A stretch of DNA of 41,981 bases from a virus: IMG/VR virus record IMGVR_UViG_3300045999_007197, positions 1 through 41,981 of that record, one strand, 5' to 3'. The notes under the pieces are model-generated. The model searched no databases, was not told the DNA's origin, and was given only the letters and a program-made list of their open reading frames with translations. Made by a program: the position numbers and the translations under genes. Positions 34,911 through 39,005 of the stretch are shown in pieces. Each line of letters begins with the position of its first letter. Position 1 is the stretch's first letter.

Positions 34911-35157
34911 CTCTTTTAGAATAGATGAATTTAAGGCTTCGTAAACTTAAAAAGTAAAAGTCAACTGCGCACGTTATTTAGACCAGGGTGATACGTTAAC
35001 GACCACGAGGCCCACTGACCCCCCAGCCCCCCCGTGCCCCGCAGGGCTCTCCGGGCCTCTGGTGCCAGGGGGCCCCAGGGCCTAAGGCCTTGATATCATA
35101 AGGTTTTTTCGATCGAGTAACGGGTATGCCAGGGGCCTCCGGTCAGTAGGGTAGGGG

Positions 35158-35173
35158 ATAGGTTCGAACCTAT
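35158..35173. other. 16-bp perfect palindrome
   Basis: ATAGGTTCGAACCTAT is a perfect palindrome just before the G-rich repeats. Its core GGTTCGAACC equals a typical tRNA T-arm, but no tRNA surrounds it. It may be a dimeric protein site. Confidence 0.85.
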
Positions 35174-35178
35174 GGTTC

Positions 35179-35320
35179 GGGGAGCCGGGGAGCCGGGGGG
35201 CCGGGGGGCCGGGGGGGCCGGGGGGCCGGGGGAGCCGGGGGACCAGGGAGCCGGGGGACCAGGGAGCCGGGGGACCAGGGAGCCGGGGGACCAGGGAGCC
35301 GGGGGACCAGGGGACCGGCC
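35179..35320. repeat. G-rich tandem repeat, 9/18-base units
   Basis: About 140 bases of GGGAGCC, GGGGGCC and GGGGGACCA units; the right half is a regular 18-base unit repeated about four to five times. Runs of 4-7 G's on the plus strand could form G-quadruplexes. All runs are on one strand. Confidence 0.9.
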
Positions 35321-35479
35321 GTGTTCCGTGTATATAGAGTGAAGGGCTTGAGGCGATTCCATGTTTGAGTTTTCCCCCAGTGTAAATTTGTATAACTTTT
35401 AAACACTGTATGAAATAATTACTAAAATATAATCAAGGCGAAGTTGTAAGTTGTTGATTTTATTAGAGCGCATACATGG

Positions 35480-35910: not shown

Positions 35911-36137
35911 TGAAAAGGGCCGTATTGCGTTTTCGTATTGAAGGAAAAAAAGTCGAAAAGTTTCCCGTAAAGTCTATTGAATCGGCGAGAGAAAAACTTG
36001 CTGATTTAATCGAGTTTGAACGGCGGGAATGGATTGCGCATATCATCGACGATTCGGGAGTTGTTGGGGAGTTTATGCCTAATCTGAATTTTAAAGTGTT
36101 CATTCCATCAGGAATTTTTATAGGAGGGCAGTCATGA
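35910..36137 (+). CDS. Small hypothetical protein
   Basis: 75 residues. Basic start (MKRAVLRFRIEGKKVEKF), helix, then beta end (FKVFIPSGIFIGGQS). TAATG coupling with the gene before and four-base overlap with the next. Resembles the next protein's general layout. Function unknown. Confidence 0.6.
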   Translation: MKRAVLRFRIEGKKVEKFPVKSIESAREKLADLIEFERREWIAHIIDDSGVVGEFMPNLNFKVFIPSGIFIGGQS

Positions 36138-36406
36138 ATCTTATTTTTAATGCAAAAAAGAAACGCCACGTTATCGAATGCGGAAGTATTCGGGAAGCCT
36201 CCAAACTCTTCCGGGATTTTATCGAAAAATTCAACTTAGGGAGTTCCGATTGCCTTGAAGCGCATATCAAACAAGGTGAAAAAACTATCGGACTAATCTC
36301 ATACAATGGCCGTGTATGGGAATGGACCGGAAGCAGTTTAAATCCGGGGGAACTCCTCTATTGCCCCTATACGCGCAAAGGATGCGCGAACTCTGGAGGT
36401 TTTTGA
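36134..36406 (+). CDS. Small hypothetical protein ending before ribozyme 1
   Basis: 90 residues. The body is mixed alpha/beta. The last 13 residues include TRKGCANS coded by a copy of the dispersed hairpin repeat (36372-36386), so the original C terminus may have been altered by insertion. The TGA is directly followed by the first base of the hammerhead. Confidence 0.6.
   Translation: MNLIFNAKKKRHVIECGSIREASKLFRDFIEKFNLGSSDCLEAHIKQGEKTIGLISYNGRVWEWTGSSLNPGELLYCPYTRKGCANSGGF
36372..36386 (+). repeat. Dispersed hairpin repeat, copy 1
   Basis: CGCGCAAAGGATGCG, followed by CG, so the stem CGCGC/GCGCG encloses loop AAAGGAT. First of eight copies between here and 39591. It is within the coding end of a gene. 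Confidence 0.9.
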
Positions 36407-36463
36407 AGCCGAAACTAGGGGGATTCCCCCTAGTCTCACCGTAAAGCGGTGACTGATGAGGCT
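36407..36463 (+). ncRNA. Type II hammerhead self-cleaving ribozyme, copy 1
   Basis: All parts of a hammerhead in type II order (open at stem II). AGCC (36407-36410) pairs with GGCT (36460-36463) as stem II. GAA (36411-36413) is the first core strand. Stem III is a perfect 9-bp hairpin (36414-36422 with 36426-36434, loop ATT), closed by the required A-U. C36435 is the cleavage-site base, giving the favoured GUC triplet. Stem I is a 6-bp hairpin (36436-36441 with 36447-36452). CTGATGA (36453-36459) is the second core strand. Cleavage is expected after 36435. It begins directly after the stop codon of the previous gene. Catalysis is not shown, but every conserved core base is present. Confidence 0.93.
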
Positions 36464-36494
36464 AACCTAGTCAGAATTTTAGAGGACTAAAAAC

Positions 36495-36728
36495 ATGGGA
36501 ACATTCTACTTTGAAATGACAGACACATTTGGCGGAGAATTAAATTATTCGTGGATAAAACGTTTTGAGATCCGCGCAAAGTCTTTGCGCGGAGCGCTTC
36601 AAAAACTCTCTCATGAAACCGGATTTAACTTTCGGTTTGACGGGAACGTGTACCGGGCAAAACGTGCTTGTGTCGCGCTTTATGAGTTGGATTACATCCA
36701 TGCCGAATGGCAAGGCAAGAAACTCTAA
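36495..36728 (+). CDS. Small phage protein, first gene of the ribozyme-flanked segment
   Basis: 77 residues (FEMTDTFGGELNYSWIKRFEIRA split over two strands; then LRGALQKLSHETG and a strand-rich end). AGAGGACTAA site 5 bases before the ATG. A common phage protein type without known role. After cleavage its message would start with the stem I hairpin, 59 bases before the ATG. Contains a 21-base near-perfect inverted repeat at 36572-36592. Confidence 0.7.
   Translation: MGTFYFEMTDTFGGELNYSWIKRFEIRAKSLRGALQKLSHETGFNFRFDGNVYRAKRACVALYELDYIHAEWQGKKL
36572..36592. other. Inverted repeat built from half of the dispersed repeat
   Basis: CCGCGCAAAG, one base, CTTTGCGCGG: a perfect 10-bp inverted repeat inside a gene. 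CGCGCAAAG equals the first part of the dispersed repeat, so this may be a head-to-head form of it. Confidence 0.7.
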
Positions 36729-36749
36729 TCCGAAACACTGGAGGAAAAC

Positions 36750-36998
36750 ATGAAAGATTTTCAAGTAATCGCATACACATTTGAGGCATCTATTCACTGC
36801 CCCTCATGCACCTTTAAGAGATTCCCTACAGGTGAAGGGATTGACCGTGAAGGTAACGAAGTCGGCGCAGTGTTTGCGGGAGATGAATTCGGGCCTAACG
36901 AATTAGTGAGTTGTGATGACTGCGGGCACATTATCCACGATGCTGACTGCTATGATTGCGCGCGGTCGTATGGGCCTTGGTCAAGTTGTCAGTGCTAA
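36750..36998 (+). CDS. Small cysteine-rich zinc-binding-type protein
   Basis: 82 residues. Cysteine pairs CPSC (18-21) and CDDC (55-58), plus CYDC and a C-terminal CQC, suggest a zinc ribbon. CGHIIHDADCYDCA is typical of small phage proteins of unknown role. TGGAGG site before the ATG. The stop TAA is followed after one base by ribozyme copy 2. Confidence 0.7.
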   Translation: MKDFQVIAYTFEASIHCPSCTFKRFPTGEGIDREGNEVGAVFAGDEFGPNELVSCDDCGHIIHDADCYDCARSYGPWSSCQC

Positions 36999-36999
36999 A

Positions 37000-37056
37000 A
37001 GCCGAAACTAGGGGGATTCCCCCTAGTCTCACCGTGAAGCGGTGACTGATGAGGCT
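37000..37056 (+). ncRNA. Type II hammerhead self-cleaving ribozyme, copy 2
   Basis: Same architecture as copy 1 and identical in all 57 bases except one in the stem I loop (TGAAG for TAAAG). Stem II AGCC (37000-37003) with GGCT (37053-37056); GAA 37004-37006; stem III 37007-37015 with 37019-37027; cleavage base C37028; stem I 37029-37034 with 37040-37045; CTGATGA 37046-37052. It begins one base after a stop codon. Downstream, to the ATG at 37088, the leader is almost the same as in copy 1. Confidence 0.93.
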
Positions 37057-37087
37057 AACCAACTCAGAATTTTAGAGGACTAAAAAC

Positions 37088-37375
37088 ATGAAAAGAGTTA
37101 CTGAAAAGGACTTAGAAAATATTGTATCCCGAATTAATAGGATGACGGGGAACCCCGAAATGACCTATGTGTGAAATGCGGAAGGCAAGCTTGAACCACA
37201 AGCGGGGAACTATCACCTAAGTTTTGCCTATGGTGGAGTTACTTTGCACCAAATGTGCGATAAAGGCACGGGAACGCATGATGTTTTAAGGTGTGGTTAT
37301 GTATCGAAAAGGGAATTGCAAAGTCTCCTTTTCGCTTTCATTGATGGAATCCAAGTTGAAGTAAAAAAGCACTAA
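37088..37375 (+). pseudogene. Small phage gene interrupted by in-frame UGA
   Basis: ATG with AGAGGACTAA site opens a frame stopped by TGA at 37172-37174 after 28 codons. The same frame then stays open 66 codons to TAA, and the second part (AGNYHLSFAYGGVTLHQM, then GYVSKRELQSLLFAFIDGI) is clearly protein-like and of a type common in phages. So this is either a nonsense mutation (Trp or Arg codon to TGA) or programmed readthrough. No tRNA with a UCA anticodon is seen in the window. Confidence 0.75.
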
Positions 37376-37390
37376 CGCGCAAAGGATACG
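37376..37390 (+). repeat. Dispersed hairpin repeat, copy 2 (one mismatch)
   Basis: CGCGCAAAGGATACG directly behind the stop of the interrupted gene; one base differs from the consensus. It runs into the following structured element. Confidence 0.85.
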
Positions 37391-37439
37391 GGGGAAACTC
37401 GATCCGGCGGGTTCCCCCCAGTTTAAAAAACTCCGGGAA
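37389..37439 (+). ncRNA. Structured leader element, copy A
   Basis: 51-base element found three times in this arm, each between a stop and a GAGGACTAA-type start. GGGGGAAACTC pairs with GGGTTCCCCCC (one A-C mismatch), leaving loop GATCCGGC. AGTTT/AAACT forms a second small hairpin. CCGG of the loop can pair with CCGGG at the end as a pseudoknot. No T-run follows, so it is not a standard terminator. Class not recognised. Confidence 0.7.
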
Positions 37440-37451
37440 TTGAGGACTAAC

Positions 37452-37748: not shown

Positions 37749-37752
37749 AAAA

Positions 37753-37803
37753 CGGGGGAAACTCGATCCGGCGGGTTTCCTCCAGTTTAAAAAACTCCGG
37801 GAA
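37753..37803 (+). ncRNA. Structured leader element, copy B
   Basis: Same as copy A except two changes in the 3' side of the stem (GGGTTTCCTCC). These turn the A-C mismatch into an A-U pair and one G-C into G-U, so the 11-bp stem is kept. This is support for selection on structure. It sits 4 bases after a stop codon. Confidence 0.7.
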
Positions 37804-37817
37804 CAATAGAGGATTAT

Positions 37818-38180: not shown

Positions 38181-38185
38181 AAATA

Positions 38186-38236
38186 CGGGGGAAACTCGAT
38201 CCGGCGGGTTCCCCCCAGATTCAAAAATTCCGGGAA
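38186..38236 (+). ncRNA. Structured leader element, copy C
   Basis: Same first 32 bases as copy A; the small second hairpin is changed on both sides (CAGATTC...AATTCC) so pairing GATT/AATT is still possible. Ends with CCGGGAA as in the others. It sits 5 bases after a stop and precedes the regulator gene. Confidence 0.7.
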
Positions 38237-38255
38237 CAATAGAGGACTAAAAAAC

Positions 38256-38681
38256 ATGACATTAAGGGAATTAAGAAAGTCGGCAGGGGTCTCACAAAGG
38301 GCCCTTGCCGAAAGGCTAGGGGGAGAAACGGTGAATACGGGGATCAGTTTTCTCGAAACGGGGACCGTATCCCCTACCATTAGGAGACTCCGAGACGTGC
38401 TTAATGCACTAGGTTTTGAACTCAGGATTCAAGCGGTGAAGCATGGCTCCGGCTCTGCCCCTGGCTCCGGCTCTGCCCCTGGCTCCGGCTCTGCCCCTGG
38501 CTCCGGCTCTGCCCCTGTTTTTTTATCCGTGGAATCCCTTATCGGCAAACCCCCCCGCGCAAAGGATGCGAGGCGCAAGGCGAACCGGACCGAACCCCTC
38601 AATCGGGAACTCCCTCGCGCAAAGGATGCGGGGGGAGAATCCGAGCTCACCGACTTACTGGAAAAACTCATTAAAGGATAG
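38256..38681 (+). CDS. XRE-type helix-turn-helix regulator with low-complexity tail
   Basis: 141 residues. Residues 1-65 are an XRE/Cro-like helix-turn-helix (LRELRKSAGVSQRALAERLG, then ISFLETGTVSPTIRRLRDVL). The rest is unusual: four GSGSAP repeats (38445-38516) and two RAKDA segments coded by dispersed repeats. Good GAGGACTAA site. It is the only clear transcription regulator in the window and could bind the inverted repeats near the genome ends or the iteron-like sites. Confidence 0.82.
   Translation: MTLRELRKSAGVSQRALAERLGGETVNTGISFLETGTVSPTIRRLRDVLNALGFELRIQAVKHGSGSAPGSGSAPGSGSAPGSGSAPVFLSVESLIGKPPRAKDARRKANRTEPLNRELPRAKDAGGESELTDLLEKLIKG
38445..38516 (+). repeat. 18-base tandem repeat, four copies, in regulator gene
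   Basis: GGCTCCGGCTCTGCCCCT repeated four times without change, coding GSGSAP. Identity at all copies suggests recent expansion by slippage. It makes a flexible linker. Confidence 0.95.
38556..38570 (+). repeat. Dispersed hairpin repeat, copy 3
   Basis: CGCGCAAAGGATGCG within the regulator gene, read as RAKDA. Confidence 0.9.
38616..38630 (+). repeat. Dispersed hairpin repeat, copy 4
   Basis: Second copy in the regulator gene, in the same frame (RAKDA), 60 bases after copy 3, flanked by GGGG. Confidence 0.9.
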
Positions 38682-38919: not shown

Positions 38920-39002
38920 GGATAGCTCTGGGAGAGGGGGAAGGACTCGAACCTTCGACTGACCGACCAGTTTCGGCGGTTGCTCTACCCCTGAGCTATC
39001 CC
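38919..39002. other. 10-bp inverted repeat enclosing the tRNA-like gene
   Basis: GGGATAGCTC (38919-38928) and GAGCTATCCC (38993-39002) are exact inverted copies. In the minus-strand RNA the 3' trailer could pair with the acceptor/D region and so oppose the tRNA fold. Confidence 0.85.
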
Positions 39003-39005
39003 CCC
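38929..39005 (-). tRNA. tRNA-like gene with encoded CCA and abnormal anticodon loop
   Basis: 77 bases. The D-arm (T8A9, GCTC/GAGC, loop AGGGGTA) and T-arm (GAAGG TTCGAGT CCTTC) are canonical and CCA is encoded at 38931-38929. The acceptor stem is poor (GGGGGGA with CCCCTCT: two G-U pairs, one A-C mismatch). The best anticodon stem, ACCGC/TCGGT, has a mismatch and leaves a 9-base loop CGAAACTGG without U33, so no anticodon can be assigned. It could be a decayed tRNA, an expanded-loop tRNA or a tRNA mimic. A 10-bp inverted repeat brackets it. Confidence 0.6.

Follow-up and report, generated by a model that had tools for sequence, protein, structure and literature searches.

We identified two complete type II hammerhead ribozymes in the early region of a virus contig from IMG/VR (41,981 bases, analysed as a whole and called the window below), and found that about a quarter of the members of the same ribozyme sub-type carry, 3' of stem II, a strand that is complementary to the catalytic core and covaries with it. 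Our main reading, to which we give a probability of roughly 75%, is that these cis-acting ribozymes would cut an early polycistronic transcript past two stop codons, and that the freed core would often refold with the complementary strand, termed the anti-core.

The window carries phage genes for helicase/primase, DNA polymerase, terminase and portal, and the ribozymes sit in a plus-strand series of small ORFs that ends near an HTH regulator gene. Comparison of the early region with named phages by DNA gave no match, and the helicase matched named phages only at less than 60% identity. The features that bear on the argument are as follows:

36404-36406, plus strand: TGA stop codon of the upstream ORF 36134-36406; ribozyme copy 1 begins at the next base
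36407-36463, plus strand: type II hammerhead, copy 1, loop I UAAAG (63.6 bits, E 3.7e-17 with covariance model R1)
36435-36436, plus strand: predicted cleavage site of copy 1, between C17 (36435) and the first stem I base (36436), from the core alignment
36470-36474, plus strand: anti-core GUCAG of copy 1, predicted to pair with core CUGAU at 36453-36457, with G-U at position 7
36481-36486, plus strand: Shine-Dalgarno sequence AGAGGA for ORF 36495-36728
36495-36728, plus strand: small early-region ORF 3' of copy 1, with a weak match to phrog_22729
36750-36998, plus strand: small ORF 5' of copy 2, whose TAA stop ends 1 nt ahead of the ribozyme
37000-37056, plus strand: type II hammerhead, copy 2, loop I UGAAG (62.8 bits, E 6.5e-17 with R1)
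37028-37029, plus strand: predicted cleavage site of copy 2, from the core alignment
37064-37067, plus strand: weakened anti-core UCAG of copy 2, predicted to form 4 bp with CUGA at 37046-37049, with C opposite U7
37074-37079, plus strand: Shine-Dalgarno sequence AGAGGA for the ATG at 37088

In both copies the parts follow the order AGCC-GAA-A(CUAGGGGG AUU CCCCCUAG)U-C^stem I-CUGAUGA-GGCU, the stem III strands reading ACUAGGGGG AUU CCCCCUAGU and being followed by C17, stem I, CUGAUGA and GGCU. Stem II has 4 bp (AGCC/GGCU), stem III has 9 bp including the closing A-U pair, and stem I has 6 bp (7 bp according to the folding program). Three helices surround the core with the A15.1-U16.1 pair in place, all bases of CUGANGA, of GAA and of the UH at the cleavage site are intact, and stems I and III are closed by loops while stem II is open, which is the type II architecture. 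Folded alone, each copy reaches -28 kcal/mol in the three-way structure (z -4.4 and -3.9), and none of 200 shuffles did as well. A preliminary description of this DNA had placed type II hammerheads at 36407-36463 and 37000-37056, and this is borne out by coordinates, core, stems and fold; judged by sequence, both elements are confirmed as type II hammerheads that are complete and intact in the core, and cleavage is predicted for each. The copies had also been described as nearly identical, 0-1 base past a stop codon and ahead of a ribosome site, as indeed they are: the gap is 0 nt after TGA in copy 1 and 1 nt after TAA in copy 2, AGAGGA precedes each downstream ATG, and the copies are 97% identical across 92 bp, from the base before stem II up to the next ATG. 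Two of the three differences between the 92-bp copies fall in the anti-core strand. Mutual matches between the ribozyme loci are confined to these two places in the 41,981-base record.

A search with the Rfam type II covariance model, suggested in the preliminary description, was negative, RF02276 reaching neither copy at its gathering cut-off (37 bits) or at E<=10. Since RF02276 recognises many phage type II hammerheads at other loci, the miss in the window is a gap of that model and not counter-evidence. The lack of any covariance-model hit had been named as a result that would speak against the ribozymes, and here the outcome depends on the model: RF02276 gave none, and R1, built from 48 short-loop members of the sub-type with none from this phage lineage, found both copies at the E values listed above and nothing further up to E=10. 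Relatives were collected from contigs of viruses and bacteria by a search for core and stem II together, after which stems I and III were tested by script. The structural scan gave 375 structured matches with the real core in 3.0 Mb and 0-2 with five scrambled cores, the real-core count being inflated also by selection because contigs had been fetched by core and stem II; the informative control is that the real core comes with structured stems I and III. All three stems covary in the 48 related ribozymes, with standard pairs in 98.3% of paired cells against 65% after shuffling and changes on both sides in 14 of 17 pairs, which is confirmation and not an independent test since a minimum of 4 bp in stem I and in stem III had been required for inclusion.

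The relatives fall into class A, with a stem I region of 17-18 nt, to which the window copies belong, and class B, with longer stem I regions. In class A, most stems are GGCC/GGCC or AGCC/GGCU and most loops UNANG-like. Class B members pair loop I with the tail that directly follows stem II, in agreement with the published consensus (PMC3088659). Complementarity between loop I and tail is scarce in class A, where 87 of 204 have no match of at least 3 nt and another 87 only 3 nt; the corresponding figures for the long-loop class B are 3 and 20 of 97. In the window, the UAAAG and UGAAG loops are without a complement in the tail of either copy, so that no loop I-tail pseudoknot was found there.

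Among 428 non-redundant ribozymes from viral and bacterial contigs, 336 have a same-strand stop codon that ends 2-10 nt before GAA, and at random positions a stop within 3-10 nt is met in 3.6%. Because stem II takes up 3-4 nt, the stop codon usually abuts or overlaps it. TAG-GCC, where stem II begins with the G of the stop codon, is the arrangement seen most often in class A (68/319), and TAG-CC is common in class B (22/109). A start codon and ribosome site follow in most of the 428, at a median of 25-34 nt past the core, and the downstream ORFs are small (median 100 aa). A shared function of the downstream genes was considered and rejected, as 70 proteins were nearly all of different families. 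Genome compactness alone could account for the contact with the stop codon; a link to terminating ribosomes is possible.

An unbiased count of 5-mers in the 30 nt after stem II showed ATCAG to be the most enriched word in class A (40 of 204 tails, 5.7 expected), ahead of the Shine-Dalgarno words, and class B was without such enrichment. Read as RNA (AUCAG), this word is complementary to core CUGAU. The hammerhead core tolerates variation at position 7, and covariation between core and anti-core could therefore be tested, for which cores with C7, A7 and G7 were fetched in addition. An anti-core strand N'UCAG, 3' of stem II and complementary to core CUGAN, was found in 78 of 319 members of this sub-type. 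Cores with U7 were accompanied by AUCAG in 40 cases and GUCAG in 2, cores with C7 by AUCAG in none and GUCAG in 36 (Fisher p=3e-20; the test treats members as independent, which is roughly fair given that the 78 cases form 73 clusters by downstream-protein similarity), and the two A7 cases both had UUCAG. In one pair with homologous downstream genes (L017 and L378) the double change at position 7 is seen directly. The searches had left the tail unfixed, and the covariation is thus not a product of selection. It indicates that the tail base-pairs with the catalytic core. The pairing extends to a sixth pair, at G8, in 58 of the 78 and to A9 in 2, and only 7 of 319 members have a word matched to N7 within 25 nt 5' of the ribozyme. 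Loop I-tail pairing was rejected as the cause of AUCAG, which tracks core position 7 and not the loop sequence. The anti-core ends at a median of 22 nt ahead of the start codon, with fairly constant spacing. The anti-core hairpin and the active ribozyme core are mutually exclusive.

We propose that members of this sub-type, whose stem II has 4 bp and whose UNANG-like loop I has 5 nt, would act in cis and cut in the cell during or soon after transcription, in the window just past the stop of ORF 36134-36406 and just past the stop of ORF 36750-36998. The upstream mRNA would then finish, a few bases after its stop codon, in the stem III hairpin, with a 2',3'-cyclic phosphate as its last group. 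In the downstream mRNA the 5'-OH end would be base-paired in the stem I hairpin, and the ribosome site would lie free some 45 nt from that end. CUGAN, the core strand set free by the cut, would often pair with the anti-core 3' of stem II, and this pairing would block re-ligation, release the upstream fragment and add a second hairpin beside stem I. A role in mRNA processing, already suggested in the preliminary description, is supported by hundreds of relatives with the same placement of stop, ribozyme and ribosome site, and is also the published proposal (PMC3088659); that the 3' and 5' hairpins shield the cleavage products, suggested there too, fits the anatomy. The downstream anti-core strand, absent from the preliminary description, suggests ribozymes that are locked or tuned and do not simply cut. 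Most likely, on anatomical grounds, the anti-core would lock the product after cutting, and it may slow cutting beforehand. A broader version, which we hold tentatively and at less than even odds, is that a self-switching sub-type is widespread in phages, in which cutting would be set by the speed of translation or transcription and made irreversible by refolding, the two window copies then being a pair at different levels.

The window lineage itself shows anti-cores of differing strength. Parts of the same early region recur in four related contigs (L123, L134, L182 and L394), the L123 helicase being 66% identical; each contig has one ribozyme of the sub-type, with the same core and different stem III and stem I sequences. 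Their tails read UAAUCAG (L123, U7), GAAUCAG (L182, U7), GAGUCAG (L394, C7) and GAUUCAG (L134), alongside UAGUCAG in copy 1 (U7, wobble) and AACUCAG in copy 2; a position-7-matched N'UCAG occurs in L123 and L182 (U7/A) and in L394 (C7/G), and not in L134. The predicted probability of the hairpin in uncut RNA is 0.99 for copy 1 (strong) and 0.16 for copy 2 (weak). Across 79 anti-core members the uncut RNA has a median predicted probability of 0.92 for the hairpin and 0.05 for stem II, and in the 3' product the hairpin reaches a median of 1.00 with stem I intact. For uncut RNA the folding program ranks the anti-core hairpin above the ribozyme in most of these members, by a median of 1.9 kcal/mol, a gap within reach of the hammerhead tertiary contacts that the program ignores. 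Such ribozymes could thus be largely off. The program scores pseudoknot-type members as unfolded too, and hence cannot choose between a slow-down and a lock.

These predictions bear on a regulated switch, which we consider possible though short of probable. Here the anti-core hairpin would be the default fold of the uncut RNA, with the ribozyme off until the hairpin was opened, for instance by a slow polymerase, an RNA chaperone or ribosome binding at the downstream start. The fold probabilities for uncut RNA agree with this, as do an anti-core end that adjoins the initiation footprint and a stem II placed on the stop codon, where a terminating ribosome would cover it. However, the energy model omits tertiary contacts and underrates the pseudoknot-type members as well, and the rarity of pairing to A9 indicates that there has been no selection for maximum strength. 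In addition, no inducer or second aptamer-like element is visible, and copy 2 and about 75% of the sub-type are without a strong anti-core. We find it rather unlikely that the anti-core is without effect on cutting and serves only afterwards, giving the downstream mRNA a further 5' hairpin for stability. The near-certain hairpin beside an intact stem I in the 3' product and the fairly constant spacing to the start codon would suit such a role, but a generic stabilising hairpin has no need of the catalytic core as its 5' strand, and it is with core position 7 that the anti-core covaries.

Our main reading, cutting in cis with frequent refolding of the freed core, also has to be set against the possible mobility of these elements. 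In L134, homologues of the neighbouring small genes stand in another order around one ribozyme, and units of gene and ribozyme have therefore been shuffled. Together with the 97% identity of the copies over 92 bp, ribosome site included, and the different families of nearly all downstream genes, this could mean that the ribozyme plus ribosome-site unit is mainly a recombination cassette that spreads or joins modules, with cutting secondary. We judge this improbable, because among the relatives the core is constant and stems I and III differ by compensatory changes, a pattern that points to selection for the RNA fold and not for identical DNA. One stretch in L123 (15255-15290, minus strand) has AGCCGAAAC and then, close by, ACAGAA...AGAGGAC, resembling a ribozyme that has lost its middle. 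Despite this apparent remnant, the perfect core of both window copies and the compensatory stem changes in relatives make it very improbable that the elements are inactive relics that no longer cut.

The kind of ribozyme and its proposed role in cutting mRNA were published in 2011 and are not new. Perreault et al. (PMC3088659) described type II hammerheads of bacteria and prophages, with several copies flanking single genes, and proposed that they cut polycistronic phage RNA into single-gene mRNAs; tandem phage-type hammerheads cleaved in vitro and in E. coli, and 4 of 18 consensus hammerheads were inactive, which, like the lack of the loop I-tail pseudoknot in the window copies, counts against our main reading. 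A later review regards the role of prokaryotic hammerheads as open (PMC6155905). The window copies share with the type II hammerheads of PMC3088659 and RF02276 the order stem II-GAA-stem III-UH-stem I-CUGANGA-stem II and the occurrence of multiple copies in phage operons. Unlike that consensus, they are without the loop I-tail pseudoknot and missed by RF02276; their stem II has 4 bp, their loop I is UNANG-like, and their tail is complementary to the core instead of to loop I. The main text of PMC3088659 mentions neither stop codons nor a core-complementary tail, and no description of the stop-codon overlap or of such a tail was found in the literature searched, which was largely without subscription papers and supplements, so that priority is uncertain. 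The HHphage hammerhead upstream of the helicase gene in haloviruses HF1/HF2 (PMC3088659) likewise lies close before a start codon and is a proposed maker of mRNA 5' ends, but it has a variant core and belongs to an archaeal virus, whereas the window copies have a canonical core. Viroid hammerheads act while the RNA is being transcribed and are influenced by metastable folds that are inactive (PMC3185496); there too, the active hammerhead competes with an inactive fold within one RNA. Those hammerheads process circular replicating RNAs, whereas the rival fold here is a short local hairpin directly 3' that covaries with core position 7. The purpose of phage hammerheads has been open since 2011, and stop-codon placement and the anti-core give concrete tests. 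If the anti-core is a lock or switch, these would be natural self-controlled ribozymes, common in phages and partly missed by the current Rfam model, and would offer ready-made parts for RNA engineering.

Several further elements were observed in and around the early region. A second intergenic repeat occurs in three copies (37388-37441, 37752-37805 and 38185-38238, plus strand) between a stop codon and a ribosome site, a placement like that of the ribozymes, and consists of a 12-bp hairpin with loop AUCCGG followed by CCGGGAA, which is able to pair with the loop. It was considered as another ribozyme class, but its fold is not clearly above shuffles in two of the three copies and nothing is claimed for it; searches by exact 19-mer or by the loop and tail pattern gave no relatives, two pattern matches resembling chance in unrelated sequence. 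The repeat CGCGCAAAGGATRCG is present in seven copies, at 36374, 37378, 38558, 38618, 38726, 38907 and 39034, all on the plus strand; it is confined to the early region, in coding and non-coding DNA, with eight copies in L394 and two in L123, and may be a strand-specific signal. Upstream of the early genes, about 70 bp at 34966-35038 are kept at 77-87% in L134, L182 and L394 and are possibly a promoter or regulatory site, and a G-rich tandem array (GGGGGGCC / GGGGGACCAGGGAGCC) lies at 35153-35337, upstream of the early region. An 18-bp tandem repeat, TGGCTCCGGCTCTGCCCC, is found at 38444-38533 within the HTH regulator gene, and the minus strand, opposite the early operon, has a tRNA gene (Rfam 40 bits) at 38932-39005. 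Ribozyme copy 2 is followed by a gene with an early in-frame stop (37088-37174, plus strand), and L123 has an apparently intact homologous reading frame, with 86% identity over 301 nt.
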